A stretch of DNA of 53,667 bases from Alphaproteobacteria bacterium (lineage in GTDB: Bacteria > Pseudomonadota > Alphaproteobacteria > Bin95): the NCBI GenBank assembly GCA_022826185.1, contig JAJDVH010000132.1, positions 1 to 53,667 of the forward strand, read 5' to 3'. Made by a program: the position numbers and the translations under genes. Shown one piece after another: positions 4,897-11,671 of the stretch (position 1 is its first letter; the number at the start of each line of letters is the position of its first letter). The notes below the pieces were generated by a model, which worked only from the letters and a program-made list of their open reading frames with translations, was not told the origin of the DNA and made no database searches.

Positions 4897-5673
4897 ATGC
4901 GGATAGGCATCATCGGCGCCGGCGGGCGCATGGGCGGGCTGCTCGTGGAACTCGTGCAGGCGGCCGACGATCTCGAGCTTGTCGCGGCCTGCGAGGCGCC
5001 GGGCCATCCGGCGCTCGGACGCGACCTCGGCGGCGGCGTCTCCATCGGCGGCGACGCGGCGGCGGTGTTCGAGGCGGCCGACGCGGCGATCGAATTCACC
5101 CTGCCCGGCCCGACCGTCGAGCATGCCGGGATGGCGGCCGCAGCCGGCACCCGCCATGTCATCGGCACCACCGGGCTCGACGCCGGGCAGGAAGCGGCGC
5201 TCGCCAGGGCGGCGGCGAGCCTGCCCATCGTCTATGCGCCGAATATGAGCGTGACGGTGAACGCGCTGTTCGCCACGGTCGAGCGCGTGGCCGCCATGCT
5301 GGGCGACGAATACGACATCGAGATCATGGAGATCCACCACAAGCACAAGGTGGATGCGCCCTCGGGCACGGCTGTCGGCCTCGGCCGGGCGGCGGCGGCC
5401 GGGCGCGGCGCCGACCTGGACGCGGTGGCGCAATGGAGCCGCGAGGGCCATACCGGCGCACGGCGCGACGGCGATATCGGCTTCGCGACGCTGCGCGGCG
5501 GCAATGTGGTGGGCGAGCACACGGTGATGTTCGTGAGCGAGGGCGAGCGGCTCGAATTCACCCATCGCTGCATGGACCGCTCGCTGTTTGCGCGCGGGGC
5601 GCTGCGCGCGGTGCGCTGGTCGGCCGGCAAGCCGCCCGGCCTCTACTCCATGCGGGATATTCTGGGGCTCTGA
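4897..5673 (+). CDS. dapB: 4-hydroxy-tetrahydrodipicolinate reductase
   Basis: The 258-residue protein starts with the Rossmann motif GIIGAGGRMG and carries the DapB signature E-I-H-H-K-H-K-V-D-A-P-S-G-T-A, with H147/H148 at the active site and K151 nearby. The FATLRGGNVVGEHTV segment is also typical. It catalyses NAD(P)H-dependent reduction in the diaminopimelate/lysine pathway in the cytoplasm. The ATG at 4897 follows AAGGAA closely and gives normal family length. The gene is transcribed away from mipZ and is followed by the OmpA-domain gene 30 bases later. Confidence 0.95.
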   Translation: MRIGIIGAGGRMGGLLVELVQAADDLELVAACEAPGHPALGRDLGGGVSIGGDAAAVFEAADAAIEFTLPGPTVEHAGMAAAAGTRHVIGTTGLDAGQEAALARAAASLPIVYAPNMSVTVNALFATVERVAAMLGDEYDIEIMEIHHKHKVDAPSGTAVGLGRAAAAGRGADLDAVAQWSREGHTGARRDGDIGFATLRGGNVVGEHTVMFVSEGERLEFTHRCMDRSLFARGALRAVRWSAGKPPGLYSMRDILGL

Positions 5674-5703: not shown

Positions 5704-8700
5704 ATGGCGGGCAGGACGAGAAGACGCAGACGGGACATCAATACCTGGCCGGGCTTCGTGGATGCGCTGGCGAGCCTGTTGATGGTCGTGGTCTTCCTCG
5801 TCATGGTCTTCGTGCTGGCGCAGTTCTTCCTGAATGAAGCCCTCTCCGGACGGGACGCGGCGCTGACGCGGCTCAACCGCGAGCTCGCCGAGCTCGCCGA
5901 GATGCTGGCGCTCGAACAATCGACCAATGCCGACCTGCGCGACGACCTGGAGGCGCTGACCTCGGAGCTGCGCCTCGTCACGGCGGCGCGCGACGACTAT
6001 GCGGACCGGCTGGACGCCGTGACGGCCGAGGCCGCGCAGGCCGCCGGCACCGTCGAACTGGTGCGCGAGGACTTCGCCCGGCTGATGGACAGCGCCGCCG
6101 CCGACCGGGACCGGGTGGAGATCCAGGCAAGCGAGATCGAGCGCCTCACGCGGGACCTGATCGCGCTTCAGCGCAGCCGGGACGCGCTGGAGGCCGCGCT
6201 TTCGGACTCGCGCCAGCAGAAGAGGGACGCCGATTCAGCCCTCGCCGAAGCGCAGCGCCTGCTTGCCGCCAATCTCGAACGGCTGGCCGAACGCGAGCGC
6301 GAATCCGATGCCCTCAAGGTCCGGCTGGAGGCGGTGCAGGCGGAGTCGGCGAGCCGCGCCGGGGAGATCGCGAGGCTCGGCACGGCGCTGCAGGCAAGCC
6401 GGGAGGACGTCGCTGCGCAGGCGGAGAAGCTCGCCGAGCTCAACCGGACGATCACCGGGCTCATGGCGGCCCGGGCGGTGCTGGAGGAAGACCTGGCCAC
6501 GCTAAGGACCGAGGGCGACGCGCAGGCCGCAGAGGCCGAGCGGCTCAAGGCGGCGCTGGGCGAGGCGCGCCGGGCGCTGGCCCAGGCGAATGCGGAAGCG
6601 GCCCGGCTCAAGACGGCGCTGGCGGAAAAGACGGATATGGCGGCGGCCGACATTGCCGCGCTGGAAAAGGCGCTGGCGACGGCGGAGATCGAGATCGGGC
6701 GGCTCTCTGCGCAACTGGCCGACACCGAGGCGGATCGAACGGCGGGACAGGCGGAAATCGCCAGGCTGGAGGCCGTTCGCGCCGGGGAGGCGGAGACGGC
6801 GCGCTCCGAGATTGCCGAGGCTCGGAAGGAAATCGGGCGTCTTTCCGCGCGGCTGTCCGAGGTCGAAACCGACCTTGCCGCGAAGCGGAGGGAAATCGGG
6901 CATCTGGAAACGGCGCGCGCCGGGGAAGCGAAGACGGCAGCGGCGCGGCTCGCAGCGCTGGAGCGGGCCCTGGAGGGGGCGCAAGCGGAAATCGGGCGGC
7001 TTGCGGCGCGCCTGGCGGATATTGAGGCCGAGCGGCTGGCGGGGCGCGACGAAATCGCCCGGCTGGGCGCTGCGCGGGCCGCGGAAGCCAGAAAGGCGCA
7101 GGCGCGGATTGCAGCGCTGGAGCAGGCGCTGGCCGGCGCGAAGGAGGAAATCGGGCGTCTGGCCGCTCGCCTGGCGGAAGTCGAGGCCCAGCGGCTCGCA
7201 GGACGTGACGAAATCGCCCGGCTGACGGCCGCGCGGACCGAAGAGGCGGAGACGGCGCGCGCGGACATCGCGGCGCTGGAGCGGACGTTGGAGGAGGAAC
7301 GGACGCAGGCGGCGTCCCTCTCGGCCCGGCTCGACGATACCGAAACCCGGCGGGCGGCGGGAGTGGACGAGATCGAGCGGCTCCGGCAGGCGCTTGCGGA
7401 AACGCGAGAGCAGGCCGCGTCGCTCTCCGCGCAACTCGGGGAAACGGAAGCCCGACAGGCGGCCGGGGAAGACGAGATCGCCGGACTGGAGCGGGCGCTG
7501 GCCGCGGCGAGGGACGATGTCGCATCGCTCTCGGCCCGGCTCGACGACATGGAGACCGCCCGCCTTGCCCGGCAGCAGCGGATCGCGGCGTTGATGGAAG
7601 CGCTCGCGGCGGCGGAAGCAAGGGTCGTGACACTCGCCGGCAGGCTGGAGGAGGCGGAGGCCGGCCGGGCCGCGGGGCGGGATGAAATCAGACGCCTGGA
7701 GTCGGCGGCCGCCGAGGGAGAGGAGGAAGCGCGGACGGAAATTGCAGCCCTGAAGCAGGCGCTGGCGGAAGCCGGGGCGCAGGCCGCGGCGCGCGCCCGC
7801 CTGCTCGAAAGCGCCGAGGCCGAGCGCGATGCGCAGCTTGCGGAGGCCGCCAGGCTCCGGGAAGCGCTTGCGGGGGCGGAAGCGCAAGCAGCGGCTTTCG
7901 CAGAGCGGCTGGCCGCGGCGGAGCGCGATCGTGACATGCAACGGAACGAAACCGCCCGGCTGGAGGCGGCGCTCGCCGAAGCGGCCGGGGAACGCGCGGC
8001 AGAGCAGCGCGCCGGCGAAAACCGTCTGGAAGAGGCGCTCGCGGAGGTCGCCCGGCTCCGGGATGAACTTGCGCTGGCGCGCAACCGCCTCGCCGAGGCC
8101 CGCGAGGACCTGCAATTGCGGCGCGGCGTCACGGAGACCCGCCCGACCGGAGAGCCCGCCGCGCCCGACACGGTGGAAAGAGCCATGTTCGAAGCGGCGG
8201 AGGCGCGCGTCATGCAGCTCGCGGTCGAGAACACCCGGCTCAGGGACCAGCTGGCCGACCTCGACGCCATCGAGCGGGGCAACGAAGACCGCATTGCGGC
8301 GTTGCGCCGGCAGATTGACGAGCAGATCGCGGAAATCGAGAAGCTCGACGCGCTGCGTCGGGCGCTCGCCGAAGCGCAGAAGAGGCTCGAAGCCGAGAAG
8401 GCCGAACAGGTTGACCGGTTGGCGTATCTCCGGTCGCGGGCCGAGAAGGCGGAGGCCGAATCGCGGCAGGCGAAGGCCCAGATCGCCCGTCTCGCGCAGA
8501 ATATCCAGGCGCTCAAGGAGCAGGTGAAGCGGCTCAACGAGGCGCTGGAGGCCTCCGAAGCGAAGGCCGAAGCCGCGGAAACGCTGGTGATCGACGCGCG
8601 CCTCAACAGCGCGCTGGTGCGCAAGATCGACGAGTTGCGCCGCTTCCGCTCGGAGTTCGTCGGCCAGTTGCGCGAGGCGCTGGCCGGCCAGCAGGTGGTG

Positions 8701-9093
8701 CGGACCGAAGACGACCGCTTCTACCTGCCGGCCGAAGTGCTGTTCCTGAGCGGCTCCGCGGACCTCGACGGGCAGGGGAAGGACCGCGTGCGCCGGATCG
8801 GCAGGGCCCTGACCGATGTCGCGGCCCGTATCCCCGAAGACCTCGACTGGGTGCTGCGCGTGGACGGCCACACCGACCGGCAACGACTCCGCGACCGGTC
8901 CCGCTACAAGACCAATTGGGAGTTGTCGGTCGCGCGGGCGGTTGCGGTGGTCAGGCTGCTGGAGGAGGCCGGCGTGCCGCCCGAGCGCCTCGCCGCCACC
9001 GGGTTCGGCGAGTTCCATCCCCTCGACCCGGCGGACACGAGGGAGGCCTACCGGCGCAACCGGCGCATCGAGTTTTCGCTGACCCGGAAGTAA
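5704..9093 (+). CDS. Giant inner-membrane coiled-coil protein with C-terminal OmpA/MotB peptidoglycan-binding domain
   Basis: The 1129-residue protein begins with a basic tail and the motif D-x-N-T-W-P-G-F-V-D-A-L-A-S-L-L-M-V. One transmembrane helix follows (about residues 21-42), as in MotB-like or 'peptidoglycan-binding' proteins of alphaproteobacteria. Residues about 45-990 are almost continuous coiled coil rich in Ala, Glu and Arg, with four 46-53-residue tandem units at 317-521. Residues about 1000-1129 form an OmpA-like domain with FLSGSADLD, RVDGHTDRQR and NRRIEFSL. MotB-type relatives are usually near 340 residues, so the periplasmic coil is greatly extended. The expected topology is a membrane anchor, a long periplasmic rod, then a wall-binding head. 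No MotA/ExbB/TolQ-like partner lies next to it. Confidence 0.85.
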   Translation: MAGRTRRRRRDINTWPGFVDALASLLMVVVFLVMVFVLAQFFLNEALSGRDAALTRLNRELAELAEMLALEQSTNADLRDDLEALTSELRLVTAARDDYADRLDAVTAEAAQAAGTVELVREDFARLMDSAAADRDRVEIQASEIERLTRDLIALQRSRDALEAALSDSRQQKRDADSALAEAQRLLAANLERLAERERESDALKVRLEAVQAESASRAGEIARLGTALQASREDVAAQAEKLAELNRTITGLMAARAVLEEDLATLRTEGDAQAAEAERLKAALGEARRALAQANAEAARLKTALAEKTDMAAADIAALEKALATAEIEIGRLSAQLADTEADRTAGQAEIARLEAVRAGEAETARSEIAEARKEIGRLSARLSEVETDLAAKRREIGHLETARAGEAKTAAARLAALERALEGAQAEIGRLAARLADIEAERLAGRDEIARLGAARAAEARKAQARIAALEQALAGAKEEIGRLAARLAEVEAQRLAGRDEIARLTAARTEEAETARADIAALERTLEEERTQAASLSARLDDTETRRAAGVDEIERLRQALAETREQAASLSAQLGETEARQAAGEDEIAGLERALAAARDDVASLSARLDDMETARLARQQRIAALMEALAAAEARVVTLAGRLEEAEAGRAAGRDEIRRLESAAAEGEEEARTEIAALKQALAEAGAQAAARARLLESAEAERDAQLAEAARLREALAGAEAQAAAFAERLAAAERDRDMQRNETARLEAALAEAAGERAAEQRAGENRLEEALAEVARLRDELALARNRLAEAREDLQLRRGVTETRPTGEPAAPDTVERAMFEAAEARVMQLAVENTRLRDQLADLDAIERGNEDRIAALRRQIDEQIAEIEKLDALRRALAEAQKRLEAEKAEQVDRLAYLRSRAEKAEAESRQAKAQIARLAQNIQALKEQVKRLNEALEASEAKAEAAETLVIDARLNSALVRKIDELRRFRSEFVGQLREALAGQQVVRTEDDRFYLPAEVLFLSGSADLDGQGKDRVRRIGRALTDVAARIPEDLDWVLRVDGHTDRQRLRDRSRYKTNWELSVARAVAVVRLLEEAGVPPERLAATGFGEFHPLDPADTREAYRRNRRIEFSLTRK
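6652..7266 (+). repeat. Four tandem coiled-coil units, three of 159 bases and one of 138 bases
   Basis: Residues 317-369, 370-415, 416-468 and 469-521 of the OmpA-domain protein are copies of one unit: IAALE.AL..A..EIGRLSA, then RLA..EA.RLAGRDEIARL, then ..AR..EA..A. Three copies are 53 residues long. The second is 46, exactly one heptad shorter. A weaker partial unit follows from residue 522. Confidence 0.75.
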
Positions 9094-9099
9094 CCGCGC

Positions 9100-9978
9100 T
9101 CAGGCGGCCGACTGGCGCAATTTCGGGCGCACGCCCAGCATGTGGCAGACGGCGCGCGTCAGTTCCGGCCGGTTGAGCGTGTAGAAATGCAGGCTTTCGA
9201 CGCCCTCCGCCTCAAGCCGGCGGCACTGTTCGACAGCAATCGTGGCCGCGACCATGCGCCGGGTCTCCGGGTCGTCTTCGAGGCCGTCGAACTGCGCGAC
9301 GAGCCAGGACGGCAGGTGCGCCCCGCAAAGCCGGGCGAAGCGGGCCGCCTGGGTGAAATTCCCGACAGGCAGGATGCCGGCAACGATCTCGCAGTCGATT
9401 CCGGCCTTCCGGCAGCGGTCCCGGAAGCGGAGATAGCAGTCGGTCTCGAAGAAGAACTGGGTGATCGCCCGCGTCGCGCCGGCATCGAGCTTGCGCTTCA
9501 GATAGTCGATCTCGAATGCGGCATCCGGCGCGTCGGGGTGGCCTTCCGGATAGGCCGAGACGCTGATCTCGAAATCGTGCAGGCAACGGAGGCCGGCAAC
9601 CAGATCGAGCGCATAGGCGTAACCGCCGGGATGCGGCCGGTAGCGTTCCCCGATGCCGGAGGGCGGATCGCCGCGCAGTGCGACGATATGCCGGATGCCT
9701 GCCTGCCAGTAGCGCCGGGCCGTGCCGTCGATCTCCTCCCGCGAGGCGCCGGCGCAGGTCAGATGAGCCGCGACGGGCAGCCCTGTGCCGCTCGCAATCC
9801 GGGTTGCGGCGATCGCGGTGCGCCCGTGCGCGCTTCCCCCTCCGCCGCCGCCCGCCCCGCAGGTCACCGACACGAAACGCGGCCCCAGCGGCGCCAGGGC
9901 GTCCAGGGTCCGCCGGAGGCCGCCCTCCCCCGCCGTCGTCTTCGGTGGAAAGAACTCGAACGAAACCGCGAGCGTCAC
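9100..9978 (-). CDS. metF: 5,10-methylenetetrahydrofolate reductase
   Basis: The 292-residue protein matches MetF in length and motifs: VSFEFFPPKT at the start, FVSVTCGAGG, the conserved HLTC.GASREEID segment, GIRHIVALRGDPP, and TQFFFETDCYLRFRDRC with GILPVGNF. It reduces methylene-THF to methyl-THF for methionine synthesis using FAD. The GTG at 9978 gives the family-typical N-terminus; reading stays open upstream, so an earlier start is possible. Where relatives read YGAGGS, this protein reads C-G-A-G followed by five more glycines, a local expansion in a G-rich tract. The gene converges on the OmpA-domain gene with six bases between stops. Confidence 0.9.
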   Translation of the reverse strand: MTLAVSFEFFPPKTTAGEGGLRRTLDALAPLGPRFVSVTCGAGGGGGGSAHGRTAIAATRIASGTGLPVAAHLTCAGASREEIDGTARRYWQAGIRHIVALRGDPPSGIGERYRPHPGGYAYALDLVAGLRCLHDFEISVSAYPEGHPDAPDAAFEIDYLKRKLDAGATRAITQFFFETDCYLRFRDRCRKAGIDCEIVAGILPVGNFTQAARFARLCGAHLPSWLVAQFDGLEDDPETRRMVAATIAVEQCRRLEAEGVESLHFYTLNRPELTRAVCHMLGVRPKLRQSAA

Positions 9979-10166
9979 GGGACAGGCTCGGGTTCCCGCC
10001 GCGCGGTCGGCGGAAGAAGCGTGACAATGGAGCGATACATGATGCGCACTCGTTATAGGGTCGCGCGGCCCGCCTGTCACCTGTGCGCCCGCTCTGGTCT
10101 GTTTGCTGCCTTGTAGTAGTATGCTAACCACTCTCGGCGATGTGCTCGGAGGGCGCAAAAACGCAG

Positions 10167-11066
10167 ATGCGAGAACGATTCGAGCATGTCATGGACACGT
10201 CCTGCCAGCCCCTCGCAGACGAGCGTCCCGCCCTGCTCGGGCGGTTGCGCATCCGGGCGGCCATATGCATGGTGGCCTGTCTGCTTGGTCTGGCGGCGGC
10301 GCTTCCGTCGAGCGCGGGCGAGGAGCCGCAGCCTCCGTCCTTCAACGATCCGCTTGAGCCGCTGAACCGGCTGGTCTTCGCGATCAACGAAGCGCTGGAT
10401 ACGATAATCCTGCGCCCGGCCGCTATCGTATACGGAACAATCGTGCCCGACCCCGTCCGGCGCGGCGTGCGCAATGTCGTCCGCCACCTGACGCTGCCGT
10501 TCACATTCGTCAACGATGTGGCCCAGGGCGAATGGAGACGGTCCGGAGACACGGCCCAGCGTTTCTTCATCAACACGATGGTCGGTTTCGCCGGTCTGTA
10601 CGATGTCGCGGCGAAAGAGGGCCTGCCCCATCGAAGCACGGATTTCGGCAGCACACTGGCGTCCTGGGGCGTGGGCGACGGGCCCTACCTGGTATTGCCG
10701 ATTGCCGGCCCCTCCAATGTCCGCGACGCCGCCGGCCTGCTCGTCCAGGGGGTTGCCGACCCCGTGGATATCGCCTTCCGCAGGGCCGATATGGACCATA
10801 TGCCGCTGATCCGCTCCGGCGTCGCGACCATCGACTTCCGGCATACCAACCTCGAGGCGCTCGACGATTTCAAGGCGAACGCGCTCGACTATTACGCCTT
10901 TGTCCGCGCGCTTTACCGTCAGCGCCGGGCCTTCGAAGTCGAAAGCAGCACGGAAATGTACCTGAAGGGCGGCACGGACAGCGAAGGCGAGGCCTATTCC
11001 TATCCGCCGCCGCGGCCGGACTTCACCCGCGGCGGACAATCGCTCGAACGCCGGCCGGCCCAGTGA
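10167..11066 (+). CDS. mlaA: MlaA/VacJ-family outer-membrane lipid-asymmetry protein
   Basis: The 299-residue product shows the MlaA pattern FNDPLEPLNR, VFAINEALD, then DTAQRFFINTMVGFAGLYD, the D-F-G-S-T-L-A-S-W-G-V motif and GPYLVLPIAGPSNVRD. MlaA removes misplaced phospholipids from the outer-membrane outer leaflet and passes them to MlaC. A hydrophobic export signal lies shortly after a basic stretch (RLRIRAAICMVACLLGLAAA). Unlike most homologues there is no cysteine at a lipobox position before the mature domain. In-frame ATGs also occur at 10140 and 10191; 10167 was chosen because a GGAGGG lies 13 bases before it, which is a weak argument. mlaC follows 17 bases after the stop. Confidence 0.9.
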   Translation: MRERFEHVMDTSCQPLADERPALLGRLRIRAAICMVACLLGLAAALPSSAGEEPQPPSFNDPLEPLNRLVFAINEALDTIILRPAAIVYGTIVPDPVRRGVRNVVRHLTLPFTFVNDVAQGEWRRSGDTAQRFFINTMVGFAGLYDVAAKEGLPHRSTDFGSTLASWGVGDGPYLVLPIAGPSNVRDAAGLLVQGVADPVDIAFRRADMDHMPLIRSGVATIDFRHTNLEALDDFKANALDYYAFVRALYRQRRAFEVESSTEMYLKGGTDSEGEAYSYPPPRPDFTRGGQSLERRPAQ

Positions 11067-11083
11067 TCCGGGGAGCCTCCGCC

Positions 11084-11671
11084 ATGCGCCCTTTGCGCCT
11101 CCTCCTTCTCCTGCCTTTCCTCACGGTCGCCCTCGCCGGGCCGGCTGCGGCCAGCGACGGCGCGGACGGCTTCATCCGGACTCTCGCCGCGACGGTCCTC
11201 CCGCAACTGACGGACCCGTCGATACCGATCGAACAACGCAAGACCCGGTTCCGCGAGGTCCTGAACCGGGATTTCGATCTCGACAAGATCGGCAAGCTCG
11301 TGCTGGGCCGGCACTGGCGGCGGGCGAAGCCGGCAAAACGAAAGGAATTCCGGAAGCTTCTCGAAAATTACCTCTCCGGCCTTTATGCGCGCCGGTTCGA
11401 GGATCTGGCGGGGCTGGACATCAAGGTGGACGGGGTCCGCGATTTCGAGGGCTGGTCGATGGTCTATACGACGGCCACGCGCGCCAATGGCGCGCCCGTT
11501 CTGCTCGACTGGCGGGTGGACAGCAAGGACGGAGGCTACGCGATCACCGATCTCGTGATCGAAGGAGTCAGCATGGTCATCGCCCAGCGCGAGGAATTTT
11601 CTGCGATCGTGATCGAGTCCGGCAGCCTGGACGGGCTTTTGATAAAGCTTCGTATGAGAATTGCCGGCTAA
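11084..11671 (+). CDS. mlaC: MlaC/Ttg2D-family periplasmic phospholipid-binding protein
   Basis: The 195-residue protein has a clear Sec signal peptide (residues 1-22, ending in PAAASDG) followed by the MlaC fold. Typical elements are a RKTRFREVLNRDFDLDKIGKLVLGRHWRRA segment read as R-x-x-F-x-x-x-L-x-x-x-F-D, Y-x(3)-Y-x-R-R-F-E, and the D-W-R-V pattern near Y-x-I-x-D-L-V-I-E-G-V-S. It ferries lipid between MlaA and the inner-membrane MlaFEDB complex. It directly follows mlaA; no mlaFED genes are in the window. The stop overlaps the parB stop on the other strand by four bases. Confidence 0.88.
   Translation: MRPLRLLLLLPFLTVALAGPAAASDGADGFIRTLAATVLPQLTDPSIPIEQRKTRFREVLNRDFDLDKIGKLVLGRHWRRAKPAKRKEFRKLLENYLSGLYARRFEDLAGLDIKVDGVRDFEGWSMVYTTATRANGAPVLLDWRVDSKDGGYAITDLVIEGVSMVIAQREEFSAIVIESGSLDGLLIKLRMRIAG

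Follow-up and report, generated by a model that had tools for sequence, protein, structure and literature searches.

The stretch of DNA analysed here (the window) comprises the 53,667 nucleotides of contig JAJDVH010000132.1 from an alphaproteobacterial genome assembly (GCA_022826185.1), and the gene of interest occupies positions 5704-9093 of its forward strand. It is a single uninterrupted open reading frame (ORF) coding for 1129 amino acids (aa), and belongs to NF006543 (PRK09039, 'peptidoglycan -binding protein'), an uncharacterized family of Alphaproteobacteria and a few others. In the NCBIfam profile search the protein scores 352.8 bits against the curated cut-off of 305; the curated test is one of score, in which protein length plays no part. 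The model is approximately 350 residues long; in the profile search its positions 57-349 of 350 match residues 837-1128 of the protein, and in the genome search positions 2-185 match the N-terminal part. Both ends of the model are present, so approximately 780 residues have been added between them. A Pfam scan of the 1129-aa protein recovers the OmpA domain and, besides it, just chance matches to coiled-coil families. The longest exact direct repeat within the gene is 20 bp, which makes a collapsed or inflated assembly unlikely, and the long-rod gene, as read in the window, is confirmed. The family and the general kind of protein are already known; new to us are three features, namely a rod of such length with a hinge in it, the splitting of the operon, and the series of rod lengths quantized in heptads. 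None of these three was found in the open-licence literature that was searched, nor was any study of the pair formed by NF006543 and its MotA-like partner.

The protein chain begins with an Arg-rich segment (residues 1-15, 5704-5748), probably cytoplasmic by the positive-inside tendency of such sequences, followed by a transmembrane (TM) helix (residues 16-45, 5749-5838) that carries the motif WPGFVDALASLLM and is evident in sequence, alignment and predicted structure. Within the helix, Asp20 (5761-5763) is identical in all 42 rows of the alignment, and it is placed like the ion-carrying Asp of MotB, TolR, ExbD and ZorB, whose role it may share. A motif search that required this Asp retrieved 138 proteins, all of which have it by construction, and the same motif without the Asp retrieved none; the protein has the conserved Asp in a TM helix near its N-terminus that is expected of a B (MotB-like) subunit. 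At the other end lies an OmpA/MotB-type head (residues 1000-1129, 8701-9090) with GHTD, NWELS..RA and NRR motifs, which matches PF00691 with 50.8 bits (cut-off 27.2) and has the fold of the MotB-like structure 3khn (E 2.8e-10, TMt 0.80). Its conserved GHTD, R1078 and NRR (1119-1121) appear to correspond, in our residue mapping, to residues required in ZorB according to a passage of PMC11890865, and the head is predicted to bind peptidoglycan. The original prediction, made from the DNA alone, had named just such an anchor and a peptidoglycan-type head, and profile, alignment and model agree on both.

Between anchor and head stands the rod. Its first and much larger part, rod 1 (residues 46-809, 5839-8130), is a proline-free heptad coiled coil with internal repeats, which in the rods of this genus recur with lags of 35, 46, 49 and 53 residues. 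Rod 1 ends in a Pro/Gly hinge (residues 810-822, 8131-8169), and the hinge is followed by an arm (residues 823-993, 8170-8682). Over residues 47-966 (approximately 920 residues) hydrophobicity has a period of 3.52 with a power of 53.8, the maximum in 200 shuffles being 10.3; the composition of the rod is 26% Ala, 15% Glu, 13% Arg and 12% Leu, and the only prolines among the 918 rod residues counted are 814, 818 and 821, all of them in the hinge. An AlphaFold2 single-chain model, built on the 42-row alignment, has helices at 16-134, 146-269, 272-399, 411-572, 576-669, 674-809, 823-960 and 966-993 and a head at 1000-1128, with predicted local distance difference test (pLDDT) values of 75-97 for these blocks. 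For the model overall pLDDT is 71.7 and the predicted TM-score is 0.32, so that the layout of the modelled rod is not to be trusted. The rod is interrupted in the model at 135-145, 400-410, 573-575, 670-673 and 810-822; the first three breaks fall in low-confidence stretches, and the last alone is the Pro/Gly hinge. The rise of an α-helix is 0.1485 nm per residue, by which residues 46-809, if extended, would measure approximately 114 nm, and the arm approximately 24 nm more. The long periplasmic coiled coil of the original prediction is upheld by the period and the predicted helices, and so is its extended length of over 100 nm, beyond any ordinary periplasm; the rod was also said to be about four times longer than in relatives, and it is indeed far longer, by a factor, however, of approximately 3 for the whole protein and 6 for the rod.

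All complete orthologs in the genus of the window genome are long. The six of them measure 725, 1129 (window), 1250, 1299, 1302 and 1347 aa; a seventh, in G003, is truncated at a contig end, and G006, a genome 75% complete, has no match. Orthologs of equal length in most related genomes had been named as the outcome that would make the protein ordinary, and this has come about in part, inasmuch as the entire genus is long, although length within it varies almost two-fold. In another genus of the same bacterial family (G008, G010-G013) the open frames range from 525 to 787. For the family such a length is unusual: fifty-three named relatives measure 335-502 aa from the presumed Met, with a median of 349, and two more rows measure 333 and 552. 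When the C-terminal head alone served as query, 92 of 142 surveyed genomes of the class gave a match, mostly in open frames of approximately 300-660. Frames above 700 outside the window genome were seen in G008 (720, in the bacterial family of the window), G035 (729), G088 (914), G129 (908), G143 (789, a weak match) and contig G028:C23 (1276). An earlier survey of the class, which covered 385 genomes and matched 248, with the best rows listed, is biased against long rods, across which the match splits.

Two of these long forms have proline-free heptad rods and a MotA-like neighbor, namely those of G088 (L164, G088:C3; 913 aa), where rod repeats recur every 28 residues, or four heptads, and of G129 (L165, G129:C70; 900 aa). 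Their existence indicates that rod lengthening occurred more than once. The 1276-aa frame of G028:C23 (L056), along with L084 and L092, was rejected as a long ortholog for want of the N-terminal anchor; these three share a closely related head and no channel-type anchor, and form a branch of their own, without an anchor, within the head family. An 837-aa frame in G196 was likewise rejected, as it amounts to 493 aa counted from its anchor. Among the family members seen, the window genus has the longest anchored rods.

Among the proteins compared, prolines in the rod are peculiar to this genus. None of the 132 family proteins outside it has a proline in the rod, and five of the six inside it do, always in the segment that follows the sequence LQLRRGV; the sixth, proline-free protein (G005) reads RGETGAADT there. 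From LQLRRGV, where the hinge starts, to the head motif there are 169-179 residues throughout the genus, and the part ahead of the hinge varies from 408 to 1020. The near-constant arm aligns to the whole of the canonical rod with no large gap, and its length is nearly the same: the canonical rod extends for approximately 180 residues from the motif Trp (180 being also the commonest value), some 30 of which belong to the TM helix. This likeness of length suggests that the genus kept the old rod as an arm and placed a new rod before it, with the hinge in between.

How rods change their length was examined in 138 family proteins, the measure being the distance between two motifs, WPGFVD and the RS.F that precedes the head. 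The proteins come from the loci collected and are not a random sample, and kinship was handled by counting distinct lengths alone. There are 53 such lengths, from 142 to 1185 residues, and 31 of them (104 of the 138 proteins) leave a remainder of 5 on division by 7 (p 2.3e-17 by chi-square). No such preference is seen for moduli 5, 6, 8 and 9 (p 0.87, 0.43, 0.99 and 0.80) or for the tail of the partner protein, measured alike, whose 56 distinct lengths are evenly spread (p 0.74); the distance from head to chain end is flat too, with only 7 distinct values. Under stricter motifs, which retain 25 proteins, one class modulo 7 takes 8 of the 15 distinct lengths. Of the 132 proteins outside the window genus, 104 fall in the main class, as do 31 of their 47 distinct lengths. 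Clear rod indels among the orthologs of the genus measure 7, 7, 14, 21, 21, 28, 39, 49 and 4 residues, and the only other clear one, of 3 residues, lies inside the hinge; heptads do not account for rod gaps of 45 and 478, and the larger gaps, chiefly against the short protein of G001, are ambiguous. There is precedent for such a pattern in Rec-GGDEF proteins, where, according to a passage of PMC8041772, linker lengths are heptad-spaced and keep two domains in phase. The quantization suggests that these proteins depend on a coil that continues without a break between the channel helix and the wall anchor. The lock on phase seems to have been lost where the hinge appeared.

The family has a constant companion. 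In 77 of 80 named loci a MotA/TolQ/ExbB-like gene lies directly upstream on the same strand, the exceptions being two anchor-less proteins and one contig cut upstream; suhB is found further upstream in 61 of the 80, and efp in many. Across 60 genomes (NF006543 presence set at E <= 1e-30, partner presence as listed), both genes are present in 40, neither in 18, the partner alone in 2 and NF006543 alone in none. The two genomes with the partner alone are the incomplete G006 and G019, in which (L059, G019:C158) efp, a suhB-like gene and the MotA-like partner have no B subunit next to them; the frames after this partner, on the opposite strand, resemble fabG and fabD by eye.

The two genes have come apart in the window genus. 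The long-rod gene sits between dapB (4-hydroxy-tetrahydrodipicolinate reductase; 4897-5673, forward strand), which ends 30 bp upstream, and the convergent metF (methylenetetrahydrofolate reductase; 9100-10158, reverse strand) in all six complete loci (the window and L040-L044), and L045 holds dapB with a truncated long-rod gene. The partner is found on another contig, in the order efp-suhB-(Pro-rich OmpA-like gene)-motA-guaA, an arrangement seen in L037, L046, L047 and L048 and, from the Pro-rich gene on, in L049. In the window genome the partner (P0002, G000:C45:4070-5206) has 379 aa. The Pro-rich gene beside it (L037:1792-4020, G000:C45) codes for 742 aa with a signal-peptide-like start, Pro/Ala/Glu-rich repeats and a weak OmpA-like end; it is possible that its product is a third component. 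Within the genus the gap between suhB and motA measures 2008-2321 bp in genomes with long rods and 1032 bp in G001, the genome with the shortest.

Assignment of the partner draws on its setting and its fold. A model of the homolog L137 (pLDDT 80) has ExbB, TolQ and ZorA as the nearest solved folds: Foldseek places ZorA, TolQ and ExbB first, with E values of 2.3e-3 and up, and VIA-align gives ExbB, TolQ and ZorA Z scores of 11.6 to 10.3, with root-mean-square deviations of 3.2-5.2 for most rows, the first 24 rows all being of the MotA/TolQ/ExbB superfamily. The TM helices of the partner carry an invariant Thr and Ser. A profile of the partner, compared by sequence with solved structures, brought up unrelated coiled coils only. 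Adjacency in relatives and these fold matches together place a MotA/TolQ/ExbB-family partner in the genome. There is no flagellar locus with MotA around either gene, as would be expected for a flagellar MotB; both lie among housekeeping genes.

Since the rod is so much longer than a periplasm is wide, its placement calls for an independent gauge, and TolA, which must reach the outer membrane, offers one. TolA was located by tblastn, an earlier motif search having had tolQ in 3 of 19 loci. It measures 297 aa in G001, 322 in G005 and 329 in G007 and, judging by motif position, about the same in G002, G003 and G004; the window genome has a 455-aa open frame with the expected C-terminus, not counted from its start, and the open frames in seven genomes of other families are 320-395. 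Domain II of TolA is given as 110-335 residues, with a median of 192, in a passage of PMC12204202. From G001 to its relatives the rod doubles, and TolA shifts by approximately 10%. TolA being no longer than usual, there is no room for the added rod to stand upright, and most likely it lies along the envelope or folds. We favor a lateral course along the inner membrane over folding, for two reasons: indels that preserve the heptad phase point to selection for a continuous coil, and the hinge sits where a lateral rod would need to turn upward.

Taken together, the family, the partner, the quantized lengths, the hinge and the ordinary TolA argue that the gene encodes the MotB/ZorB-like B subunit of an ion-driven inner-membrane motor of the ZorAB/TolQR kind, with the rod lying laterally, a reading to which we assign a probability of roughly 0.6. 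Dimerization and motor activity are drawn from the analogy with MotAB, TolQR, ExbBD and ZorAB, as these are described in passages of PMC9389320, PMC11890865 and PMC12505986. By that analogy, five A subunits would surround two B helices, and ions would pass by Asp20. The B dimer would form a single parallel coiled coil leading to the peptidoglycan-bound heads, so that the ring of A subunits would turn against an axle held by the wall. In ordinary relatives the rod, of approximately 150 residues or 22 nm, would bridge the gap between inner membrane and wall, and length changes by whole heptads would leave the coil unbroken. In the window genus, growth of repeats would have inserted approximately 780 residues after the TM helix and ahead of the old arm, and the Pro/Gly hinge would have been gained just before the arm. 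The added rod would follow the inner membrane, the hinged arm would rise to the wall, and the anchor point could lie up to about 100 nm beside the motor.

A bolder version, which we hold to be unlikely, likens the protein to an outrigger: a stiff boom of approximately 114 nm on the inner membrane, a jointed arm of ordinary size, and a head that grips the wall, so that the unit could act on, sense or link sites some 100 nm away. The family at large would then be a torsionally locked axle that can change length only by whole heptads unless hinged. The wide distribution (92 of 142 genomes) and the housekeeping neighbors point to a task in the envelope and not in defense.

Several observations weigh against the motor with a lateral rod. 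Ion flow and torque in this family are argued from analogy and not from experiment, and the lateral rod from geometry. None of the six proteins of the window genus falls in the main modulo-7 class. The window partner P0002 scores below the MotA_ExbB cut-off in Pfam (20.6 against 22.9 bits, in one stretch), and together with its neighbors reaches 25.6 bits; the Foldseek E value is weak even at its best (2.3e-3), and a Z score of 11.6 is below the level of approximately 13 that is safe for helical bundles. Four of the breaks in the single-chain model precede the hinge, so the rod may be jointed or may fold back. Finally, the almost two-fold spread of lengths between species also fits neutral drift.

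Neutral expansion is a serious rival, though we consider it somewhat unlikely. It accepts the motor subunit as described and takes the extra rod for ballast, produced by slippage and stowed by crumpling or in hairpins. The spread from 725 to 1347 aa within one genus, the repeat lags and the similarity of repeats at the DNA level speak for it, and so do the four model breaks ahead of the hinge; residues 361-811 are the least conserved large part of the protein (64-83%, the head having 85-96%), and the Pro-rich gene beside the partner, to judge by gap lengths, is likewise longer in long-rod genomes. Yet all six complete orthologs are long, the clear rod indels are heptads, hendecads or a stutter, and long proline-free rods are found also in other families (G088, G129).

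A passive tether, which would merely tie the inner membrane to the wall in the manner of a long lipoprotein, with no role in a motor, is improbable: an OmpA-type head and a coiled coil would suffice for it, but the TM Asp is invariant, and co-occurrence and adjacency with a MotA/ExbB-like protein are near-perfect. More improbable still is an unusually wide periplasm in this genus, spanned by the rod as by a ruler. The spread of MotB lengths may reflect the thickness of the periplasm, according to a passage of PMC9389320, and long rods go together with a longer Pro-rich OmpA-like gene beside the partner; the idea was set aside for the ordinary length of TolA, which changes by approximately 10% while the rod doubles. 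Least credible is an anti-phage system of the Zorya type, considered for its best PADLOC matches, ZorB3 for the long-rod protein (1.7e-19) and ZorA1 for P0002 (9.2e-15), and set aside in view of the housekeeping neighbors (efp, suhB, guaA, dapB, metF), a presence in most families of the class that is unlike the patchy distribution of a defense system, and an NCBIfam antiphage_ZorA_2 score of 22 bits against a cut-off of 100; no ZorC, ZorD or ZorE was found among the examined neighbors of either gene, in a scan that did not take in every ORF around the partner or in the rest of the genome.

TolR and ExbD, B subunits of the complexes with the closest folds to the partner by Z score, have an Asp in the TM helix too; they are short proteins without a long rod or an OmpA-type head. 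Compared with NF006543 at large, whose TM motif at the N-terminus, heptad rod and head it shares, the window protein is longer by approximately 780 residues, has the proline hinge, and is encoded away from the MotA-like partner. ZorAB shares the pair of MotA-like and MotB-like proteins, gives the best PADLOC matches and has ZorA among the closest folds; the long part of Zorya is, however, the cytoplasmic tail of ZorA (in a passage of PMC11890865), whereas here it is the periplasmic B subunit. The head fold is nearest to MotB-like proteins, such as those of the flagellar stators MotAB, PomAB and MotS, which, as described in part of PMC12505986, have a flexible plug and linker and no long coil. 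GldM of the GldLM complex, a 5:2 motor, is likewise a dimer with a long part in the periplasm, a shaft of 18 nm (part of PMC9389320); it consists of four folded domains, with no coiled coil, and is approximately six times shorter. The Rec-GGDEF linkers in the cited passage of PMC8041772, of lengths in multiples of 7, are short cytoplasmic signaling elements, and here the quantized object is a periplasmic rod of 142-1185 residues between fixed motifs.

If the motor with a lateral rod is real, it would be a widespread and unstudied alphaproteobacterial machine, and the family would offer a natural series of lengths, from 142 to 1185 residues, for testing how B subunits couple to the wall. The quantization is also relevant to the question of how rigid the axle is in motors of this type, stiff or floppy. 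The explanation of MotB-type lengths by periplasm width, as put forward in part of PMC9389320, misfits this genus, where TolA is ordinary and the rod almost doubles.

As to the remaining surroundings, nearby partition genes had been taken as a hint of polar or mid-cell localization, a suggestion that loses its footing: parA and parB (named by eye) are approximately 2.5 kb or more downstream, past metF, mlaA and mlaC, and relatives carry the gene elsewhere, after efp, suhB and the MotA-like gene. The outer-membrane lipid transport genes mlaA and mlaC occupy 10140-11671 on the forward strand, beyond metF and before parB and parA. On the reverse strand, at 2413-2784, the window codes for a small protein with one TM helix and 7-residue repeats (SMDRLGE-like), a short membrane-anchored heptad coil.

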